Below, piece after piece: positions 15,664-56,600 of a DNA stretch of 64,000 nt. The translations under genes were made by a program, and so were the position numbers. The notes under the pieces were generated by a model. The model was not told where the DNA came from and did not search any database. It saw nothing but the letters and a program-made list of their open reading frames with translations. The first letter of the stretch is position 1. Every line of letters begins with the position of its first letter. Source of the stretch: Cytidiella melzeri (Eukaryota > Basidiomycota > Agaricomycetes > Polyporales > Irpicaceae); the NCBI GenBank assembly GCA_022592445.1, contig JABYQR010000181.1, positions 1-64,000 of the forward strand. The letters run 5' to 3'.

Positions 15664-17310
15664 CATGATGAAGTCAATACAAACATTGCCTTCTACTTGA
15701 CTGAATTCAATGCATACTACGCTGAAGACATCGGTGATCCAGTTACTTACAAAGACGTACTTAACCACTCACTCAAAATCAACTAGCTCAAGTCAATGAA
15801 AACCAAGGTTAATACCCTCGAACAACTTGGCACTTGGGAATACTGTATCCCGCTGCCAAATGCGAACATCACTGGTTGCGCTTTGTCTACAAAACAAAAT
15901 ACGAACATGGCAAAGTCACTAAACTTAAGTCAAGACTTGTTGCGCAAGGATACTCCCAGCGTGACGGCATTGATTACTACTCAAACGACTTATTCGCACC
16001 TGTTGCGCGTATGAGTTCATTACGATTTGTACTTACTCTCGCGGCTTCACTACACTTCGAGATCACTCAGCTCAATATCAAGTCCGCATACTTATACGGT
16101 AACATCCAGACGATGAAACTTTATCTTCGTCCACCTCCTGGTGACTTACTTCGAACCTGCCACCTGGCTGGGTACTTAAACTTCAGAAAACCATCTACGG
16201 CCTTAAGCAAGCCGGACGTTGTTGGTAAAAAGTACTATGCGACATACTCTTTGCACTTGAACTGAAGCATTGTGAATTCGACAATGCAGTCTTCTACCTC
16301 TATCGAGGTGATAAACTTCTACTTCTACTTGCTGTCCACGTTGATGACATTACTCTCGGCACTATCACTACTACTGTTGCCGAACAATATGAGATCGCAC
16401 TCAGACAACATGTCAAACTTACTAACGGTGGAACTATCCACTGGATGCTTGGCATGGAAGTTGCTTATGATAAAGCAGCAGGCATTATCAAGCTTTGTCA
16501 AAGGGATTATATCCTGAACATACTTAAGCGATACAACTTTGACCACAAACATTCACGCCGTACACCAATGGTACACGAGCACAACTTAGCCCCCGTGCTG
16601 TGACCAAACCACATCAAGATGCTGACGCCATTACACACTACATGTCTCTTGTCGGTGGCTTACGCTACGTCGCCGACAGTACTCGACCAGACATTGCTTA
16701 TTGCACTGGTCAACTAGCACGATACTTATCTGACCCGGCTAAGGAACACTACGCTGCAGCTAAACAGTGTTACCTTTACCTCAAGGGAACGTGCGACTAC
16801 TGGCTTGTCCTAGGAAACCAAGCCAACCCTACTTCTACTTCACTCGTAGGTTATGCCAACTCTGATGGTATGACTACGTACGGAAATAAACCAATAATGG
16901 GCTACACTTTCACATACAACGACTTGCTTATCTCTTGGTCAAGTAAGCGTGGTTCACTTGTAACTTTATCGGTCACCGAAGCCGAACTGTACGCACTCGC
17001 TCATGCGTCCACAGAGGCCATCTATTTGAAGAGCCTCATAGATGAAATACTTGATTGCACTATGGACCCTGTCAAGATGTACACCAACAGTGCGTCAACT
17101 CTTAAGATTGTTCGTTCCCCCGAGGAACAACACTCTCAACGTACTAAACACTTTAACATTCGCAAGAACTTCATCAGCAATCGTGTAATTAAAGGGTACA
17201 TTACTGTGCACCACGTACCTTCTGCCGATCAACGTGCTGATACTCTTACTAAAGCACTACCTCTCGAAAAACTCAAGCACTTCAATGAACTACTTCATGT
17301 TCAGGCTTGA
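15664..17310 (+). pseudogene. Copia reverse transcriptase and RNase H (frameshifted)
   Basis: RT is recognisable across frames as KSRLVAQGYSQRDGIDY, FAPVARMSSLRFVL and LNIKSAYLYGNI, then HVDDITLG (about 16335) at the place of the catalytic YVDD. RNase H runs open from 16600 to 17310, with MSLVGGLRYVADSTRPDIAY, the SVTEAELYALAHASTEAIYL block and ADQRADTLTKALP near the end. Frame changes near 15870, 16180-16260 and 16600, and an in-frame TAG near 15784, show it is inactive. Confidence 0.85.
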
Positions 17311-17487: not shown

Positions 17488-18650
17488 ATCCTGTGAATTA
17501 GCGAAAGTTTAGAAGTTGCATCGTCACTTGCTAGTATTCTCCTAGACAGTTACGTTACCCGGCAGTGGCATTTTGGATGCGTTGCTTTCGTCGGTGATCT
17601 TGATCTACACTGGCCTAGTGGAGCTTCTCGCGCACGAGTTTTTGTTCAGTAATCAAGGATATGATTACGGTATCGAATCAGAAGCTGGCTTATATGCTCA
17701 TGTGTACCTGTGTTGGTAGGGACTGTAATGATTCTTCTGGAGGAGGCGGGCATGAGGAGAGGGCATGAATGAAGTATGGCCTGCGACGAGCGGCTGTGTG
17801 TGGGGATGCCAGTGTATCTGGACTGGCAAGCGGAATATCTACGATTGGGGTGACAAGCTTGAACCATGTCCAGCATTGTAGTGCCTCAGCGAGGACGCCA
17901 CTGGCAGCGGTAGCGGCACAGCCTGTGTGGCGGCGAGTCACTGCGTAATCAGCGCCAAGGACAATGACCTTTGCCTGTACCTGAGTCATGACCAAGGCTG
18001 CTTTTAAAATTATCAATAAACTGTCCGTCTAGGCCTGTTACTGGAGGCTTCAAGGAGTACGGAGATACCGCTGCAGCAGATGGTGACAGGAGCAAGCGCT
18101 TCTTCGACTGGTGTAACAGCGGCCTGCTCGTCGAGTTCAAGAGACATACGAATATGGATCCTTGTCATACGCGGGAGGAAATCAGGAAGGCTGCCAAAAA
18201 GCGCAAAGGACCCGACAAGAACAAGCCTGTGGCGTTCGAGAAGTTTAATGCGGACGCCACGAAGGTTCGCGGTCAACTGGCTATGTACGCGATGAAGGTG
18301 TTCGCCCACCAGCACCGTCTCCACCTCCTCCAGCTGCTTATCTGCGGCAACATCGCCAGATTCTTGTTCTGGGATCACTCGGGAGCGATTGTCTCCGACT
18401 GCTTCGACTACATCGAGAAGCCCTGGTTGTTGGTAGAATTTCTCTGGCGATACAACCACATGTTGGCTGCCGCACGAGGGCTGGATAGTACAGCGAGCCG
18501 CGCCACTTCTGAGGAGGCGAAGAAGTTCAAGGCGGCTGTGGAAGAGTTCCTGGAAAACATGGAAAACGCCAAGCATCCCCAACGTGAGCTCCCCAACGCC
18601 GCAGACACACTCAGCGAACAGTACCCCGTCTGCAAGATCACCGTCATCGA

Positions 18651-18900
18651 CAGGCTCCTAACCAGCCTGCCTGGCGTCGTCGTTCAAATAGGTCTTGATG
18701 GGCGTAGCTCTATGCTGAATGTAATGATAGCGAGTTTTGTGTATACCGCAGCCACCGGAATGTACTGATAATTTCAATGTCAGATTGATCTTACCACTCA
18801 CGAATTCTCACTCCGACCAAAATACAACTCAGAACACTTTGAAGATGACGCCAGGCAGGCTGGCAAACAACATGGTGGGAATTTCTGGTCAGCATTTCAC
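18651..18900 (+). repeat. Left terminal inverted repeat of the RecQ/DUF6589 element
   Basis: Matches the reverse complement of about 24560-24815. It contains the motif CCAGCCTGCCTGGCGTC near the tip and the same motif inverted at 18847-18863, suggesting paired protein-binding sites. Confidence 0.8.
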
Positions 18901-19036
18901 ACGCTGGTGTGATTTCGCTCTTGTCACTCCTTGTCACCGGACAGTGACCATGCTAGCACGTGCATGACGCGTTGCGTCTTGCCAGTACTTTACCATAGCT
19001 ACCAATTTTTATTACATTTTACTACATTGCCTTGTC

Positions 19037-21542
19037 ATGCCAGATACTTCTGTGTCTCCTTTCGAAACTCTCTCTTGTGCTACCAGTGATTTACCAGCTT
19101 TAACCGGTGGCCAGAACTCCACAAAACCTCTCAGCGAGACAGAAGTCCGTGCCAAAATCCAGGAAGTATTCCAGAAACGCCCATGTGACTTCCAATATAA
19201 CCTGTACTGTGCGCAGCTGTCAGGGAAGAACATAATCAGTGTTGTGCGTACAGGGTCTGGAAAAACATTGACATACCTTATGCCTCTCGTAACTTCTTCA
19301 GATGGGATAATCATCATTGTCACCGCTTTGAATGTTCTCGGAGAACAGTTTGAGCGTGAGGCAAAGGCAGCTGGCTTCTTGGCGAAGTCTGTTAATGGTG
19401 AAAATGATTGCGACGATGTTTTCAAGGTACGAGACATTCTATATGCTCCATTACATACATATTTATTGTTTGCATTGGCTGGCAGGATATTAGGCAGCTC
19501 AAGTATTGTGTTGTCATATTTAGCCCCGATATTATGATGAAACGAGGTGGACGCTGTCAAACGATGCTATGGCCAAACAAAACATTTACATCAAAGCTGC
19601 AGCGCATTGTATTTGACGAAGCACACTGTATCGTACAGTGGGGAAGTTCCTTCCGCCCCGAATACAAAGCGGTCACCGATATTACCTTCCATCTCCCCGG
19701 TATACCTGTGTACCTCTCCTCTGCGACAATCCCACCAGCAATGGTCCAGCACTTGAAAGACATGTTTCGGTTGAGTGAAGACAACACCGTCATTTTTCAA
19801 CGCACCAATGACCGCCCAAATATTGCCATGGTAGTACGACGCATGCAGCATGCACAGAACACCTACGAAGACCTTGCGTTTCTAGTGCCGAAAGGGTGGA
19901 AGGATGGCGACCAAATTCCGAAGAAATTCATGGTATTCTTTGACAACAAAAAAAAGGCTGAAGCGGCAGCAAAGTTCTTGCAGAGTCGGGTCTCACTAGA
20001 TCTGCGCCGGAAGATTCCATGGTTTCACGCAGGCATGACGAGATTTTTTCGAGTTGAGGAGGTGGACAACCTGCGGGGAGCGAATGGTGAAGCGAGCGAA
20101 GTCTGGGGCTTTGCAGCAACAGATTCGGGTGGTATGGTAAGTGTGGCAGCGTGTTCCAGCACAAGCCTAACTGTAATACTTACCTTCTGCAAAGGGTCTT
20201 GACGTTCCGAACATTGCCGTTGTTGTCCAGTGGAAGGTCCCGAGCAGCCTCAACACGTTGATCCAGCGTTTTGGCCGAGCAGCTTGTGATTACAGTCTGC
20301 AAGGCGTTGCAATTTTGATTGCTGAGCCATCGTGGTTCTACGAGGAGAAAGCGCGCCTGCAGGAGATGCGAGCACAACGAACGCGGACAGCGAAACGAAA
20401 ACCCTGCAGTGAGAATCAGCAGCAGCACTCGAATAAGCGTGCAAGGACTCACTCGAGTGCTCCAACACCATCCAATACTCTCCCTGTCATCCCTTGGAAA
20501 CCGCATTCCAAGGGTAGAAACCGCTCCTGGTATTGCAGCACTGGCCGGCGCGCCCACGTTCCTGAGTGCTGCTGATAGTGCTGAAGACTTGGACCTAGAA
20601 GATATTGGAAGTGGGAGTAGCAATGAAGAAGTTGACGTGGGTCATAGTGGGAGAGACGAAAGGGAGGGTCAAGGGAACGACGCCGTTGTGGTAACAGAAG
20701 ACCAAGTGGCTACAATGCTCCTTATCCGCTCTACAAACGCAAGCGCGTCAGGGCTCAGACCGGTGAAGGGTCTAAGAGGCAAGTCAACATTCTGTCAACT
20801 GCATCGTGTCCCTGACCGTGCGTTGTGCATGTTCATCAATGCACACAACCTCCCACCACCAAAACGCTGCCGCCGCTTTCACGCAGACCACTACTACGCA
20901 AATCATCAAGCAGGTACGTGCATTTTATATTGTATCTGTCTCATACTCATCAATCAATGTACAGTGCAAGAAGCAAAACCGTGCTGCGAACGGTGCGAAG
21001 CACGACCTGCCTCAATCTGCTGTGACATCTGTCATAGTGACGAGGCTGCAGCTTTGATCCCAACTCGAAACGACGTACTACCGCCACGGCCAAAGACGAC
21101 AAGGAAAATCAAGGTAAAGGCCTTCACTATGTTGGCACCCGAGAGCAAGCTCCGCGACGAGTTGTTTCGATGGAGAGACAATACAGCAAAGGCACAGTTT
21201 GCTGACTACAAAGACTGCGGGGGAGATATACTCATGCATTATAAAGTTCTCGAGCGCATCATAGAGCTTGCTCACATACAAAAACTCAATTCGGTCCAAG
21301 ATATACACGACCAGACAGGCTGGTGCTGGACAGCAAAGTATGGCCAAGATGTCCTCAATCTTGTTCGCAAATATTATCCAGGACCGGCACCATCCTCCCC
21401 GTTTACAACAGTCCCGCTTGAGACTAATCAACAAAATCCAAGCGTATTTTCTGACAACTCGGAATCTATCCCAGTACGACAAACACGCGCATCTCCTGTT
21501 TGTGGCGCATGCAGCACACGAGGGCATCGCAGTACGTCTTGA
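19037..21542 (+). pseudogene. Mobile RecQ-like DNA helicase (probable frameshift)
   Basis: Exons 19037-19426, 19486-20136, 20195-20913 and 20965-21542, with introns of 59, 58 and 51 nt (gtacga..ggcag, gtaagt..caaag, gtacgt..tacag). Superfamily-2 motifs are I (VRTGSGKTLTYLMPL), II (FDEAHCIVQWGSSFRPEY, the RecQ form of DEAH), III (SSAT) and VI (QRFGRAAC). The C-terminal part has a basic/acidic linker and Cys-rich clusters (CCERCEARPASICCDICH, CGACSTRGH). One frame change is needed between about 20470 and 20575, so this copy is probably dead. Presumed role is ATP-driven 3'-5' DNA unwinding linked to element movement (inference). Confidence 0.8.
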
Positions 21543-21712
21543 TCTCTTTTTACAAATATATACAAGCTGGTAATGTGCGCATAGAGAACAGCCCACTGTG
21601 TCCTAATAAGACATCTGCACGAAATATTCGCGAACTGGCGGAAAACATGGTACCACTCCAATAAGCTGTAAGTTGTCTGTTTCTCGACTTTGTCATTTAT
21701 TCATAATCACAG
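21543..21712. other. Gap between convergent genes of the element
   Basis: About 170 bp separate the two stop codons, so the two genes are tail to tail. No further ORF or hairpin terminator is evident. Confidence 0.5.
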
Positions 21713-24471
21713 CTACTCTATTTCTAGATCATTCAGTTCGACTTCCTCAATGTCAACAAAGTTCTCGCCTTCGTCCTCCGCAAAAACCCCTTCGCCAGAC
21801 CCGCTGTCCGCAGCAGCAGTTGTTGTAGTCTGCAGTATATACACACCATTGCGTAGATGATCCTTAAGATCATAGGAGTCCCTACCTGCATGGTTCTTGT
21901 GTGCCTTGTGTTTGAGAAGTAGATCTCATAATGCTTGAATTGTATTTCGGAGATCAGGTGGTGCATGGCGGACTGAGTGATGCAGAAGATGAAAGTTATC
22001 CTGCATAGTCCTGTGTACTTGTCGAAATACCTCTATCAATGGCGACTGCTTGAGGATGAGCTGGAACGTTCGTGCATAGCCCGAACTACCGTATACAACC
22101 TCCAAAGAACAATTTAGCATACACTACCACACATTGAAGAGGTTCAAACCTTGATGTACAAGTTCATTAGCTCGACAAGCCAATCAACGGCACAAAATCC
22201 GTCAGGTCGCCCGGTTGGGTTGCAGAGCCAGTTCAGGCGAAAGGCTCTTCTAGGTATTGTGGTTGCTACTAATGAGTCTATAGTGATCACGCACTTCATG
22301 CCGAGAAGAGACTCACGCTAGCCTCTCAGGATATACATACTTCAGGTCTGCCATGGTTTTGATGAGCTGAGCAGCGTACTTGTGCTTTCCGACACTCTTA
22401 AATATGAAGACCCATCTGCGAAATGTAGCCTCGACCCGTCCGATGTCACCATGTTTCATGGCATGGGCTAGCTCAACGTAGTCAAGCAAACGCGCGAGGA
22501 TTAACGAGTTGTTACGAAACTCTTGATCCCTTGCTGCCAACACTTTGTCGACATATTTCCCTGTCAGCGATAGCGGAAGTTCTTCAATATCTGCCCAGGT
22601 TGCCAGCGTGGCCCACTCTTTCAGAGACTGGCGTGCATGATTCTCGACTTCGACGCGCCATATATCGAGCATACGAGCCGCCACGCATTGTGTGATCAAG
22701 TCATGCATCAAGCGAAAGCCTGGTTTACTTCCAATACACCCCGAATCACAGGGACGTATTTTGCATGCCTGCTGGTATAGCCCATTAGGTGCGGTTCGCT
22801 GAGCCTTTGGTTCAATGAACATTCGCCAAATCGCATCCACTGCAGCCATTTGTAAGTGGAATAGGCCGGGGACATATACAACATTGTGGAGGCCACGGAC
22901 GGGTTTTTGCTCAATAGCTCGAGACGCGCGAGAACCCTCAAGACGTTCTCCAGTACCCAAGTCACCGTGAACAAGTAAGATGTACTCTGTGATGTCCTCA
23001 ACATTGGGCGTGTCTGTGGGATCCCCGATATTTGCCTGCGCGAAGAGACTCTCAAGAATTTCAGCTTGCCCGTCCACAGTCGACTGGTTGATATCCATCG
23101 CACAACAGGGAATGTGAACGGTCCGCTTCACGGGAATTTGGACAATGGTTTCCGGTGCGCCGAGACGGTTACGATATTGGTCAAAAAATCCGCCATATGA
23201 GACTAGAGCATGTCGAAAATGCCATGCGAAAATTCAGTTCTTGCGACCGGCTGGCTCCTCGCTAGGATGCGGCTGAAGGTCCAGCCACGTACGAACAGGG
23301 CGACATTGCTCTGGCGGTATGCATGGATTCAGAGGACTCGTGCTCCACAGCGAAGCAGCACACTTCAGGTCTTCTGGTGTCACGTCGTGTTCCAGTGGAA
23401 ATGCGAGCGCAGATGTCGCGTGCTTGAGCGTATCTCCACTGTTCTCGATTGTGGCGGACCAGCTCTTGAAGTCCATGTCGAAGTTGTCATAGGCGAAGCC
23501 AAGTGTCTTTGCCTTTGCCAACTTGCGCAGCTCATCACTGGCTGACTTGGACAACGAGCTGACCATCTTGTGAATAGTTGTAATGGAGATGGATAATCCT
23601 GCGTGGGAGAAGACTTCGACTACAAGCTCAGGCGTAGATGTGGAATGAAAAAACATGCCCATTGCTGCAGCGAGTGCGTTACATTTCTGGTTTGTACTGA
23701 ACATGAGGACGGATGTTATAACAACTTGTCTCTAAGTAATCGATGCACATCGTGACGTGAGTCAAGGCCTATACACACATGCGAAACGCAGCTCACAATT
23801 TGTAGCACTGCGTCCCGGCGTTCTGCGGCTCTGCGACATCTCTTTCTCAGCCGCTCCGCCTTACGCTCTGCGTCCGAGTGGACTCCTCCGCCCGTGGCAT
23901 TCTCGGCACCCTGCTGAAGCACATCGTCGTCCATGTCTGGCCCCAGCACGTCGAGGTCTGCATCCCACCAGTACTCGTCTTCTTCGTCCCATGTAACATC
24001 CTCCTTTGCTGCATTGGAATTGACTGCTGACCGCACCTGCTCCTCTGAGAACTGGCGCTGGCGCTGAATCCGTGGCCGGTCGCTATCGAGGAGAGCCCCG
24101 AGTAGAGTCGAAAGGACGGGAGCCTGTTCCTGCATCCGGCGCGACATGCCATCGATGGCGAAGTCATCAAACTGTTCAGCACGGGGATTGATAGCACTAA
24201 CATGCCACCCACTTTCCTTTTCAGCTAATCGGGATACCTCCGAGGTGAGCTCGCGGGTGACCAACCCTCGGGCAAATTCTGTAGTCGACACCCGAAGTGG
24301 TGGATCTTCATGCATGGCAAGAGTGGTCAAGAGGGCCGGCCATTCGTTGACAAACATGTTCCTTTGAACATGAGATACATAGCGAGGGTTGGTGAGAAGA
24401 GTGATAAGAAGCTTGCAAATTGAGTGGCCGTGCAGTGAGTGAAGCGCAGAGTCGACGATAGCGAAGTCCAT
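21713..24471 (-). pseudogene. DUF6589 protein, candidate transposase (two in-frame TGAs)
   Basis: The best ATG is 24471 (MDFAIVDSALHSLHGH). The first exon runs to about 23800, where an unresolved intron switches frame. The second part, 23704 to 22317, continues in one frame across a TGA at 23234-23236. Introns 22316-22250 and 22149-22100 lead to the last exon, 22099-21713, with a TGA at 21926-21928. Diagnostic DUF6589 blocks are YDNFDMDF, MDINQSTVDG, ILLVHGDL, VPGLFHLQMAAVDAIWR, GSKPGFRLMHD, GDIGRVEA and LNWLCNPTGRPDGF. The family is greatly expanded in Agaricomycetes. Its function is not established to my knowledge. Confidence 0.8.
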
Positions 24472-24559
24472 CGTGAGGTCGTCGTGATTAATAGAGCGCG
24501 CCGTTGTGACAGACTGTGACACAACGCGTTTAGCTGTGACCTACTACTGAAAATGGAGC

Positions 24560-24815
24560 GTGCGAAATGCTGACCAAGAATTCACACGACGTTGTTTGCC
24601 AGCCTGCCTGGCGTCGTCTTCAAAGTGTTTAGGTTAAATCTGTGTCTGAAACATTGTCGCCGAATCAAATGTATAGTGGTGGGATCAATCGGACTTTAGA
24701 ATTCACGGTACATTCCGGTGGCTATCGGCTGTGTATACGAAGTCGAGACTCAACATATCCAACTTCCCTGGGACTCATTTGAACGACGACGCCAGGCAGG
24801 CTGGATAGGAGCCTG
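24560..24815 (-). repeat. Right terminal inverted repeat of the RecQ/DUF6589 element
   Basis: Mirror of the left repeat, with the outer copy of the GACGCCAGGCAGGCTGG motif at about 24788-24804 and an inverted inner copy at about 24600-24617. Confidence 0.8.
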
Positions 24816-26140
24816 CGTCATCGATGACATCTCTGAAACGTCCATGGACGTCCTCGTCCAACGTCCTTTCTTTCGCTCCCACTCTCCCATTGGTCGCTGT
24901 ACTCGCGCCTATCTCGCGTACGCCCTCAAAGAGCAAAGGCTGGTGTTCTTCAAGGACACTTGGCGCGTCGTACACAAGCGTCTCATCCCGGAGAGACAGA
25001 TTTGCGCCGATCTCGAACGCGCAGAAGTCCCCTTTGTCCCTGGCGTGTTGTGTGGGGGAGACGTGATGCTGAACGGAGAGCATGGGAAAACGCAGTGCTT
25101 GGAATGGGTGAAGAAGTGGAAGGATCTCGCGGTTGGATTTCATGAGTTGCGGGACTTTGGTGCACCACCTCGCGTATCCCGAAGAGTGCGCCCCATGGTC
25201 GAAGCAGTTCGTCGTCGCGTTTTTTGACTGTCTCGCAGGTACGCTTTCACTCATGTGTTGTCTGAGAACAATCATTTAATTTCTTTATTCCCGCAGCGGT
25301 GGACGTAGCCGTGCAGAAGTGCGGTCTTGTACATCGGTCACGAGACTGGTCACCACGAGCTCACCATGAGCCAGCAGTTCCCACCCGTCGTACCACATGA
25401 CGGCAATGTTGCGCATTCGCAGCACTCCGGCTCCTCGTCTCCTACCAGCGCAACCATCCCTGGCATCCCGCCCCCACCACATATCGCCTTTCCGAGAGTT
25501 CCTCTTTTGCCACCAGCGTCTTCGTCCGTTCTCTCAGGTCGGTCGGTGAGGTCGAAGCGAAGCATCGACGATATCGACGACGACAACGACGCCAACATCC
25601 CTGCCGCTGCTCAGTCTTCTACTCTCGCGCTACGGCCTACCAAAAAGCCAAGGTCGACATCGATATCTGCAAACGCTGAGGCGGGTCACACAAAGCCGAC
25701 AAAACCCAAGAAGTCCAAGAAGACGGTGAAGGTCCCTGTCGGTAAGACAAACACAATCAAAGAGGTCTCCCGACCGGGGAAACCAGTTAAAAAGGTTCGG
25801 AGTGGTGATCTTGGCGATGGCGGAGTCGTTTCAACCCGTCGTAGAGGATTGCGGTCATCGACGGCAGCGCGTAGTGCCTCACAATGAGCAGCATGCCGTG
25901 TCACGTATAGGTTGGAGAAGAAGGCTAGTTATCAGGCGTTGTGAACGTTTTCTCGCTTTTGTTGGCTGAGGTACTCTCATATCTGTACTTGTCTTGCTCG
26001 CGAGCTGTGTTGGACCTTGACGGACTGCACTCACAGTTATTCATATTGTTGGACCTGTGGTTCGTGCGTTCAGTGCTAATATACTTCTAGTTACGGGGTT
26101 GTTGGCCATCACTCACATAAGATTCAAATGGTGAACGTTG

Positions 26141-41644: not shown

Positions 41645-44600
41645 ATTTGCGCACTTTCGTCATGGAAATAGGACTTGAAGGTGTAATTTCCCGTAATGAC
41701 CTTTTTTCGGACACTAGTATAACGAATGTATATGATCTTGACGTAGTTTCTCGGACTATTTCGTAGTTACTTACTAAGTAGGTATCATCGCTATCCCCCA
41801 GCTCCAGCTAGAGCGTTACTGTCGACGTCGCTGCTGCCGTATTTCAACTTGACAATATTCAAGGACTCTTTCTAGTATTTGCAATGTGTCTTTGCTATTC
41901 TGTGAATTTGCATATGGACTGCCTCCTTGAATTTTCTACATTTAAGTACTTCCTCCTTGTTATCTGCCCCATCACACTTTCAAGACCACCATCCATCAGG
42001 AAACAGCAGCTTTATCTACCTGTGCTACCAGTTGCCATGGAGCTCTACTGAGCTATGCATAGCCTTAGGCAGTGTGAGTTAGCCCCAGGTAGCAGACTCC
42101 TACCCAGTTGCCGGTGAGACACTAACACACCCCCTGGATACGAAGGGACCAGGCACAAACACCTCTGACCTTGAGGGAGGCAATCATGTGTGTAAGTTGT
42201 AACAGGGGCAGAGTGAACATGTGATGTGAGTGGGTCCAAGAGTTCTAGACTGCACCTGAACACAAACGAGAGGTGATGCAAAATGTCAAGAAGCAACAAG
42301 ATGCAAGGAGTTGTAGCGCGAAGCAATGAGGCGCGAGGAGTGCAAGTAGTAGGTGGGGGCTGCAAAACAACTAGGGGCAAGAGGAGGGGCACTGGGTATG
42401 TAGGAAAGTACAAGAAATGACAGTCATGCACACCGAAGGGTTTACAAGGTGTGAGGTAAAGAACCCAAGAGGTTAATGGTGGGGGAAACTCAAAGGTTGG
42501 GTAAAACAATAAAAAAGGTTGCGAGGGATGAGAGGAAAGGAGAGAACACAGTGAATTGCAGTTGCAGAGTGAAAGAGAAATGTGGCTTTCAAACACAAGG
42601 CAGTGAAAGGAACACAGTATAAACACAGTAGCCAAGAGAAGGTAAAACAATGGCTCGAAAAGAGGACACAATGGAAGAGGAACACAATGCAGTGAATTGA
42701 CACAGTAGAATAAACACAGTGAGGGACACAAGAGGGCTTGAGAACACAACACAAATGAGATATATGTACAGCAAGTAGGCTCGAGACGAGAGATGCCAGG
42801 AGCAAGGAGGCTCAGGACACAAGATACAAGGCTTGCAGAGGCAAACTTGAAGGGGAAGAATGACATGGATAGTCCAACAGAGACCGGACTTTTCCATCAC
42901 AGTCACCAGTTTACAGCATCAGGTGCCTATCTAGAGCACTTATTTTCCGGCTAGGACTATTACCGGACCTAACCCTAAACCGGGTCACATGACATCCTGC
43001 CTTATTTATCAATAGTTTATAAGTAGTTAGGCTAACATGTAGATGAAGCTGCTAAACATGGGGCTAGAACCTCCATCTATCCACTTCGTATCAATATTCC
43101 TTCTATCCATCCATTATCTGTCTGCCATTGTGCTTGACAGTGACCACATGGCTTAGACCATCATTTAATTTTGTGTGTAGTTACACCAAGGGGTTCTGAC
43201 TTGACAACTTGTCTCCTGACAATAGTCAGTCTTAATACTGCCCAAGTAGACTGGAAAGATAAGTATGTTTCCAGATGTTGCACCTGCCTCTTGTCATCAA
43301 GTTGGCTATGCTACTTCAAAGCTTTTGCAACTCAAATCAATCCATTCTGTATAATCTTTTAGTCATGGGGCTTAAAGAGTAGATATTTTGTATCTTTCAT
43401 TGTCCAGGCCATCATATTGCCTCATGTCTGCTACTAGTAACTTACATCTAATCCAAATTTTTGTGCCATTCTATCCCCCACAATACCCAAGTTTGCCCAA
43501 CACCAGCCTTTGCAGTGTCTTAAGTCCGGTCCCCTACTTTGTGCCTGGGGCACAACATTGAGTCAACATCAGTAGATAAGCCCCTCAGACTTATTTCCTA
43601 TGTTCAGATGGCTACATGCAAAATCTGTAGCAGTGTGACATGTGTATCTGTATTTTGTACTGGTAGCTTAGGTAGACAAGTCATTTTTTAGAATTCAAGT
43701 AATGCAATAAGCAGTGCATTTGACCACAACCTGTGTTTGTAATCAGAATGATTGGTTCTGTGTTGTTCTGATGGTTTAGTCTACTGTAGTTTACACAGCC
43801 TTCAGGCACATATATTCAAAGGTATCACTTGTTATGTCCAACCCTATCCTGTTGAAGTTTGAGTGTGAGTTCCAAGCTGCAGTACATCTTAAAGCTGCTT
43901 CACAACCTGTTGTACCCCACACAGCCTTCATGCATATGTGATAACAATCATTATCTTGTCAAACTTCTTGTGTAGATTACAAGCTGCAGAGAATCTGTGC
44001 TACCATCTGTTTTGATTGCCAGTGTGTTTGATTGTCATGCTACAGTCTCTGGTAGTCTAGTCTACACAGCCTGTATGTACCTAACCAAGAGCAGCAACTG
44101 TTATGTGCAACCCAATCTGTTTCAATGTGAGTTTCAAGGTGCAGTGCTTTTGCACCATAATCTGTCTTTGTTACCAGTCAAATTTCTATATTATCTTACT
44201 ATTGTAGTCTGCACAGTCTTTATGTCATAGCAAAATTGAATTGTGCAGGTAACCTACTATTCTGTGCACAATTTTCTCAATATCCTGAGGTTACACCTGT
44301 GCATGGACCACAGGGGATAACAAGCTCCTTGGCATTGTAATGTCTGAGTTGAAACACTGTTGAACATGTTTCATCATTTTTTGCTTGTTTCATCAGCTGC
44401 ATTGCAAATTAGTTGATCTGCAAGATATATAAAGTCCTCTGCCACTTGTCCTCATACCTCTCAGCACTTACAAACTTGGCCCCTGTTTCTCCAGATTCTT
44501 ACACTGCTACAGCGCTGGTCGGTCAGTACATTGTTGTTTGCATCAGATTGTTTGCATTGAAACTGCCTTGGATCACTGTTCTGAAACTGTCATCACAGCT

Positions 44601-53602: not shown

Positions 53603-56600
53603 TCATTGTGAGGCACTACGCGCCGCAGTCGATGACCGCAATCCTCTACGACGGGTTGAAACGACTCCGCCATCGCCAAGATCACCACTCCGGACCTTTT
53701 TAGCTGGTTTCCCCGGTCGGGAAGCCTCCTTGGTCGTCTTTGTCTTATCGACAGGGACCTTCGCCGTCTTCTTGGACTTCTTGTGCTTTGTCGACTTCGA
53801 GGGACCCGCCTCAGCGTTCGCAATTATCGATATCGACCTTGGCTTTTTGGTAGGCCGTGGCGCGAGAGTAGAAGACTGGCCAGCGGCAGGGATGTTGGCG
53901 TCGTTGTCGTCGTCGATATCGTCGATGCTTCGCTTCGACCTCACCGACCGACCTGAGAGCACAGACGAAGACGCTGGTGGCAAAAGAGGAACTCTCGGAA
54001 AGGCGATATGTGGTGGGGGCGGGATGCCAGGGATGGTTGCGCTGGTAGGAGACGAGGAGCCGGAGTGCTGCGAATGCGCAACATTGCCGTCATGTGGTAC
54101 GACGGGTGGGAACTGCTGGCTCATGGTGAGCTCGGGGTGACCAGTGCCGTCCATTTGCATTTCGTCCGGCTCTGTCAAATCGGATTCGGCGGTGCGGCCC
54201 TCATTGCTCCTATACTCTTCCTCGGGATGCAGTTGAGGCTCCGGCTCCTCCACCTGTGCTGGTCGCAACGCCGCAAGGTTCTCGTCGCGAGAGGCCATCT
54301 CTTTTCCGGACACGAGAGTTGACTCAGCTGCCCTTTGGTGCACTCTGGTGTCGGCCTTCTCAGTACTACGAGGGTATGGGTCTGGTATGACATCCATGAG
54401 CCAACCTGGCTGCTTTAAGGCGTCTTGGAATATTTTGCGCCAATACTTCGGGTTGCTCAACTTCGTACGCAGCGTTTCATACCTCGCGCGGACGTCTGAT
54501 GTGAGCTCGTCAGGACTTTGTTCCTCCTCCAGGTCTATGGCAGGCCTCTCTATCTCAGCTGGTACTTCATCGACGACAGGGGCTCCTTGAACATTGCTCG
54601 TGCCAGCTTCAACTTCATCACGGAGTACGTAGTATTTCTTCCACTCATTGGCGAGTCTGCATATGAGATTCTGCAGGGGCAGGCATTTGAAGTGTAGACC
54701 TTTGTGGATTTTGCCGAGCGCAGCAAACTTCAAACTGCCGCCAACGTATGCAGTTGAGCCGTCTGCGAGCTGTGTGAGGTTCTTCTCGTCGAACATCGCG
54801 ATTATGATGGTGGCGTCCTTGATGTGGTCGAAGCGGTGCATCGCGCCAAAGAGAAGTGCCCAGAACACCGACTCGAGATCGTCAAGAGGCTCGTGTGCTT
54901 TCAATGGGTCTTCCAACAGGGCGATAGACATGAATTGCCAGGTGCCCTGCGAAGATGATCAGCATCATATAGATGAATATCACTGGAACAGCAGCAGAAA
55001 CGTACGGTACGGAAGCGCTGATGAGCCTGGCCTTCGGAGAGTTCCACCTGCCCCGAGTGATCCCAGTCGGCCAGAACGCCTTGCGCAGCTGCGCTCGCGT
55101 TGAGCATCACGTTACCAATACTGATATCGCGATGTACAAGACCGCACTTCTGCATGGCCAAGTCCATCGCTGCGGATACAATAAAATTGAATGATTGGTT
55201 CAGACAAAAGATGAGTGAGAGCGCACCTGCAAGACAGTCACAAAACGCGACGACGAACTGCTTCGACCATGGGGCACACTCTACGGGATACGCGAGGTGC
55301 TGCACCAACCTGTGGTGCTGGAAGTCCCGCAACTCATGAAATCCAACCGCGAGATCCTTCAACTTCTTCGCCCATTCCAAGCACTGCGTTGTCCCGTGCT
55401 CTCCGTTCAGCATCACGTCTCCCCCACACAACACGCCAGGGACAAAGGGGACTTCCGCGCGTTCGAGATCGGCGCAAATCTGTCTCTCCGGGATGAGACG
55501 CTTGTGTACGACACGCCAAGTGTCCTTGAAGAACACCAAGTCGTGCCGCTCGAGGGAGTACGCGAGATAGGCACGAGTACAGCGGCCAATGGGAGAGTGG
55601 GAGCGAAAGAATGGACGTTGAACGAGGACCTCCATGGACTCCTTGGAGATGTCGTCGACAACGGTGATCTTGTAGACTGGGTATTGTTCGCTGAGTGTGT
55701 CGGCGGCGTTGGGGAGCTCACGTTGGGGATGCTTGGCGTTTTGCATGTTTTCCAGGAACTCTTCCACAGCCGCCTTGAACTTCTTCGCCTCCTCAGAAGT
55801 GGCGCGGCTCGCTGTACTATCCAGCCCTCGTGCAGCAGCCGACATGTGGTTATATCGCCAGAGGAATTCCACCAACAACCAGGGCTTCTCGATGTAGTCG
55901 AAGCAGTCGGAGACAATCGCTCCCGAGTGATCCCAGAACAAGAATCTGGCGATGTTGCCGCAAATAAGCAGCTGGAGGAGGTGGAGACGATGCTGGTGGG
56001 CGAACACCTCCATCGCGTACATAGCCAGTTGACCGCGAACCTTCGTGGCGTCCGCATTAAACTTCTCGAACGCCACAGGCTTGTTCTTGTTAGCTCCTTT
56101 GCGCTTTTTGGCAGCCTTCCTGATTTCCTCCCGCGTATGAAAAGGATCCATATTCGTATGTCTCTTGAACTCGACGAGCAGGCCACTGTTACACCAGTCG
56201 AAGAAGCGCTTGCTCCTGTTGCCATCTGCTGCAGCGGTATCTCCGTACTCCTTGAAGCCTCCATCCGGACGGTAAAGGATGTCTCCCCCCTTTTCCGTGG
56301 AGTTTGCAGAAATAAAGAACGGGAAGTTCGGAGAAAGATTGAATTTCTTGACTGTCTCATTCTGTAATTGATTGAAGTAGCGCAAGAGGTGGGGGTAAGT
56401 GATTGTCTCCCAGCCAGCGGACAGAGTGCACTCACGAAAGCATCGCAGATATGCTTCTCGAGCCAGGTAAGAGGAGCGGAGGTGAACTTGACGCGCGTGG
56501 GTTTCTTGCGAAGGTCTTCTTGTGGGATGGGCATAAAGGTCTTCAGGAAGTCAGAAGCTTTGCAGGGGCCAATCCAGTGTCCATCCATATCGAGACCGTA

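Follow-up and report, generated by a model that had tools for sequence, protein, structure and literature searches.

The window (the whole stretch of DNA analysed, 64,000 nt in length, on contig C92 of the 49.7 Mb Cytidiella melzeri genome) contains a fungal-kinase gene of this member of the Polyporales that is interrupted by a 6165 bp element at 18651-24815. The element lies between two exact copies of a 9 bp target site duplication (TSD), has long terminal inverted repeats (TIRs) and carries a RecQ-like helicase gene and a DUF6589 gene on opposite strands. The span of 18642-24824 given in the initial annotation takes in both TSD copies. The features of the locus are listed below.

18642-18650, unstranded: left copy of the TSD CGTCATCGA, an exact match to 24816-24824.
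18651-18905, plus strand: left TIR with an inner inverted copy of CCAGCCTGCCTGGCGTCGTC at 18844-18863, defined by end alignments.
19037-21542, plus strand: RecQ-like SF2 helicase gene of several exons, from Pfam and NCBIfam matches; the extent, ATG and introns are putative.
21965-24540, minus strand: DUF6589 gene, convergent with the helicase gene, encoding the proposed DDD transposase; from the PF20231 match, with a putative extent.
24557-24815, minus strand: right TIR with an inner inverted motif copy at 24599-24618, defined by end alignments.
24816-24824, unstranded: right copy of the TSD, an exact match to the left copy.
55130-56263, minus strand: natural empty site, a paralogous fungal-kinase gene that lacks the element and has an open frame; from a 92.6% alignment with an ungapped junction.

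Structure of the element and its insertion site

The outermost 39 positions of the left and right ends differ at a single position (CAGGCTCCTA[A/T]CCAGCCTGCCTGGCGTCGTCGTTCAAAT), and the likeness between the ends spans approximately 255-259 bp, with a local alignment score of 120.5 compared to 32.0 for the best of 200 shuffles. Over 272 columns, the two TIRs are 72% identical. The 20 bp motif CCAGCCTGCCTGGCGTCGTC recurs in inverted orientation further inward at each end, with one mismatch in the left copy and 148-162 bp between the arms. Because of these inner inverted copies, each end forms a foldback-like pair that is likely to represent a set of transposase binding sites.

Removal of the element and one TSD copy joined flanks that aligned to the paralogue at 56263-55130 with 92.6% identity over 1135 bp, ungapped across the junction, and the joined frame was open through the junction. 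The two flanks correspond to consecutive stretches of PF17667, a fungal protein kinase profile: the left flank matches positions 40-122 (E 1.3e-7) and the right flank positions 137-219 (E 3.2e-5; 23.3 bits, just below the cut-off of 24.1). The initial annotation had described inverted ends with degenerate repeats of ~250 bp, a perfect 9 bp duplication, restoration of the kinase frame upon removal of the element and one repeat, and a sister locus serving as the natural empty site, and the alignments bear out all of these observations. The name 'FunK1' was used there for the interrupted kinase gene.

The helicase and DUF6589 genes

Pieces of the plus strand of the window matched PF00270 (DEAD; 4.8e-7 and 1.8e-7) and PF00271 (Helicase_C; 3.4e-5). 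The best NCBIfam match, at 19408-20202, was TIGR00614 (recQ_fam; 6.8e-17), which at 61.4 bits is under the curated cut-off of 219.8. Putative introns of the gene include 19427-19485 and 20137-20194, and the Cys-rich tail at the end of the gene had no Pfam match. The corresponding helicase piece of a related element, C397, matched WRN, RecQ and BLM chains in the PDB.

PF20231 (DUF6589) matched the minus strand of the window with an E value of 4.3e-61, which, together with the DEAD and Helicase_C matches on the plus strand, agrees with the cargo that was first proposed, a RecQ-like helicase and a convergent DUF6589 gene. Pfam labels PF20231 as DUF6589 with no listed function, and in protein listings the DUF6589 proteins of many mushroom genomes are annotated as hypothetical or 'DUF6589 domain-containing'. 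The structure model of DUF6589 is RNase H-like, and the nearest solved structure is the Hermes transposase (9-11% identity to Hermes chains). Residues D200, D389 and D549 are near-invariant in DUF6589 homologues, the third being less certain; the candidate catalytic Asp codons of the window copy are located at 23488-23486, 22963-22961 and 22528-22526. D203 and E553 were also considered as catalytic residues, and were rejected as each was present in 41 of 41 sequences of the close clade and in 4 of 50 of the second clade. Pfam scans of six pieces of C397 and eight pieces of the window revealed no second transposase besides DUF6589. The structural prediction suggests that DUF6589 is most likely the transposase, with the helicase as its partner.

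An in-frame TGA at 23236-23234, a position at which the C32 copy is open, interrupts the DUF6589 gene of the window, and this copy is therefore probably not a source of active transposase. The window copy is a decayed insertion within the fungal-kinase gene.

Pairing of the two genes across the genome

A PF20231 profile search of the genome, in which 102 of 216 first-look candidates were scored, gave at least 120 matches that clustered into 82 loci. With the window helicase exon as the query, 84 matches were found, corresponding to 79 loci. A helicase locus lay within 6 kb of 54 of the 82 DUF6589 loci, compared to approximately 1.5 expected under uniform placement, an expectation that treats transposons as unclustered. 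The pairs were convergent in 53 of the 54 cases, and the single divergent pair (C17) involves a helicase that doubles as the partner of another DUF6589 locus. Unpaired loci numbered 28 for DUF6589 and 26 for the helicase. Some of these reflect the limits of the searches: C636 matched both the DUF6589 and the helicase queries from the window, and had no PF20231 match.

Similarity to the window DUF6589 and similarity to the window helicase were correlated among best hits (Spearman 0.73, for 40 loci with both matches, hand-picked from tables and uncorrected for the kinship of loci), as would be expected if the genes travel together. The data support the assignment of the element to a lineage of TIR transposons in which a RecQ-like helicase gene and a DUF6589 gene travel together.

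Ends and duplications at other copies

The motif CCAGCCTGCCTGGCGTCG was found at 31 places in the genome with no more than one mismatch, and its reversed control at none. C397, C405 and C568 form a group of 6.1 kb elements with a DUF6589 protein ~40% identical to that of the window; their ends are CAGACTCCTACCCAGT and they have the exact TSDs GGCTTGGTA, CTCGCTGCT and GTGCACGGC. C397 and C405 are identical across 6088 bp. In this related family, the presence of identical copies that each have a separate TSD suggests that movement was recent. A further diverged group, C173, C352 and C667, consists of copies with >99.7% identity across ~6.8 kb and ends of the form TAGTCTCG[TG]A[CA]CCAG; C352 and C667 have exact TSDs (GGTACCAAC and GTGGGAAGG), and C173 has none.

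The diverged groups have the terminal pattern YAGNCTCSTAMCCAG in common, from which the window element and the C173 group each deviate by one base at their right ends. This pattern, derived from the ends of the window element, the C397 group and the C173 group, occurred at 153 places in the genome (source copies included), and its reversed control at two. Fifteen inverted pairs less than 10 kb apart were seen among the first 100 of these places, with the exclusion of C397, which was part of the earlier count; pairs with a wider spacing (C45 and C57, for example) fall outside this set. Eleven of the pairs were flanked by an exact 9 bp TSD, one by an exact 8 bp TSD (C22) and three by none (C15, C177 and C166b).

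We then grouped the elements by gene content. Both genes and both ends were present in 15 elements (the window element, C397, C405, C568, C173, C352, C667, C24, C15, C22, C75, C177, C179, C195 and C236), which had an exact 9 bp TSD in ten cases, an exact 8 bp TSD in one and no TSD in four (C173, C24, C15 and C177). The TIRs and duplications of 8-9 bp anticipated in the initial annotation at pairs elsewhere are present in the C. melzeri genome, the duplications at 11 of the 15 two-gene elements, the window element included. Among 11 elements in which only part of the pair, or neither gene, was found or which are too short to hold both genes (C112, C148, C430, C2, C12, C20, C157, C166a, C166b, C218 and C237), the TSD was 9 bp and exact in nine, had one mismatch in C430 and was absent from C166b. 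Overall, 19 exact duplications were of 9 bp and one, at C22, was of 8 bp. C112 is a miniature element of 317 bp with the TSD CTCTATTAC, and the TSD of C148, the ends of which are on separate stretches, was identified by visual inspection of the flanks as AAATGCTAC on both sides. It should be noted that these counts leave out C387 and C678 (one end within the stretch); C32 (L010) and C709 (L020), where the second end was cut or unclear; L011, L017, L018, L019, L021, L022 and L024, for which blastn with the window ends found one end; the single ends L076 and L081-L090; and, of the two left ends at C236, the outer one (C236a), in place of which C236b was used.

Proposed mechanism and alternative explanations

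We consider it very likely that the element is an AcademH-type DNA transposon with two genes, or one very near to that type, and that its DUF6589 protein, with an RNase H fold, acts as a DDD transposase making 9 bp TSDs. In the mechanism we propose, DUF6589 would bind the long TIRs and the repeated CCAGCCTGCCTGGCGTCGTC-type motif, cut the element out and join it to the target in a cut-and-paste reaction with a 9 bp stagger, a mode of joining that would give rise to 9 bp TSDs. The convergent RecQ-like helicase would probably unwind or process ends or gaps while the element is being excised or integrated.

The recurrence of the pair is difficult to reconcile with a known element, mobilized by another transposase, having captured DUF6589 and the helicase once. 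We found no point in favour of such a capture and rejected it as extremely improbable, because the helicase pairs with DUF6589 at 54 of 82 loci and does so convergently at 53, among strongly diverged sequences that have a common terminal pattern and 9 bp TSDs; in addition, DUF6589 is itself a predicted transposase. We attach just as little weight to KolobokH, the fungal Kolobok lineage with a RecQ helicase. Kolobok duplications are TTAA, whereas the duplications found here are 9 bp in length and varied in sequence. The fungal host and the combination of a RecQ helicase with a DDD/E transposase do speak for KolobokH, but according to the accessible part of PMC9587614 its helicase is placed downstream of the transposase domain, whereas the helicase gene of the present elements lies on the opposite strand and is convergent. 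The varied 9 bp TSDs and the convergent helicase led us to reject KolobokH.

An undescribed superfamily, with DUF6589 as a DDD transposase unrelated to Academ and a RecQ-like helicase acquired independently, is unlikely. We are similarly doubtful of the broader proposal that DUF6589 and RecQ-like elements with YAGNCTCSTAMCCAG-type ends and 9 bp TSDs are an unrecognized non-Academ superfamily and a major class of DNA transposon in the Agaricomycetes, in which the helicase is the obligate partner of a Hermes-like transposase. A literature search by family name, with thin coverage of subscription papers, found no mention of DUF6589 and no link between it and transposons; AcademH was matched by its described traits; and RecQ helicases also occur in KolobokH (PMC9587614, in part). 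These points speak for an undescribed superfamily. However, a helicase and a TSD of 9-10 bp in Basidiomycota are traits of AcademH in the accessible portions of PMC10045372 and PMC10799480, and it is less likely than membership of AcademH that a second superfamily sharing these traits, with dozens of copies in one genome, has been overlooked.

Comparison with known transposon systems

The AcademH lineage of the Academ superfamily reportedly goes back to Kojima in 2020. In the part of PMC10045372 available to us, AcademH elements encode a helicase and have TSDs of 9 or 10 bp, a length tied to the helicase, and in AcademX the TSD is 3-4 bp long and a nuclease takes the place of the helicase. Excerpts of other sources describe AcademH as low-copy in Basidiomycota, Ascomycota and Mucoromycota (PMC10799480) and report putative nonautonomous Academ elements from a mushroom, Marasmius oreades (PMC8290104). 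The accessible text of PMC9674265, on activity in M. oreades, deals with hAT, LINE and Mariner elements and does not mention Academ; AcademH is cited in PMC12210899 and PMC9970103, the available sections of which add little. PMC4522978 was considered as an earlier report of a RecQ element and rejected, its accessible part being concerned with subtelomeric RecQ genes in an ascomycete.

The modelled DUF6589 protein resembles the hAT transposase Hermes in its predicted RNase H core and in having a large helical insertion ahead of the last catalytic residue. Hermes has such an insertion at the corresponding place. The hAT elements are not known to carry a helicase. The TSD of hAT elements is usually 8 bp in the accessible part of PMC12730594 (in which Academ is not mentioned), compared to 9 bp here. 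AcademX, which also belongs to the Academ superfamily, differs from our element in its TSD of 3-4 bp and in its nuclease.

AcademH shares with the C. melzeri element a helicase-encoding DNA transposon structure, a TSD of 9-10 bp and a host in the Basidiomycota. Exact 9 bp TSDs were found at 10 of 15 two-gene elements and 9 of 11 others, the PF00270, PF00271 and RecQ-family matches identify an SF2 helicase, and a DDD/E transposase is predicted from the RNase H-like model and conserved Asp residues of DUF6589. Judged by described traits, membership of AcademH is highly probable. AcademH is described as low-copy in the excerpt of PMC10799480, whereas we found 82 DUF6589 loci in 49.7 Mb, not all of which are necessarily elements.

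The initial annotation had suggested a distinct transposon lineage, and a TIR lineage with both genes does stand; its placement outside the standard superfamilies is not supported, since AcademH fits, and the statement that no standard superfamily has this pair is probably wrong. The element type itself is probably a known one. The structural prediction would give a likely function, that of a DDD transposase, to a Pfam family of unknown function, and the ends, TSDs and identical, apparently young copies offer material for probing the role of a transposon-encoded RecQ-like helicase. Taken together, the traits of the element fit AcademH better than AcademX, KolobokH or hAT.

Related element ends and flanking sequence

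Four elements of about 0.8 kb in the C. melzeri genome (G000), each with TAGTCTCGTACCCAG ends and an exact 9-bp duplication, are probably nonautonomous relatives:

C2:202905-203727
C12:77924-78746
C157:127661-128478
C218:12761-13579

The window itself contains a solitary terminus:

42093-42107, + strand, single CAGACTCCTACCCAG terminus

Its sequence is identical to that which terminates the two-gene elements of the C397 group, with similarity to the group's element limited to about 21-26 bp, and no good second end was found downstream in a search of the window up to 50000.

In the copy on contig C24 (stretch L009), the left end (1831-2297) is present twice in tandem, at 1831-2044 and 2045-2297, and the copy lacks a clean duplication, as if produced by a one-sided or nested event. 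The right flank of this copy (L009 8293-9388) and one flank of the C430 copy (L023 858-4136) are the same repetitive sequence, which the two elements adjoin at an identical point, a possible target preference for a repeat.

Directly upstream of the element-interrupted kinase gene lies a stretch (16229-17310, +) that begins with a reverse transcriptase match:

16229-16603, + strand, RVT_2 (PF07727; Pfam, E 4.4e-13)

RVT_2 is the reverse transcriptase of Copia-type retrotransposons. The next frame (16543-17310, +) gave no match in the Pfam scan; it reads like the RNase H end of such a retrotransposon.
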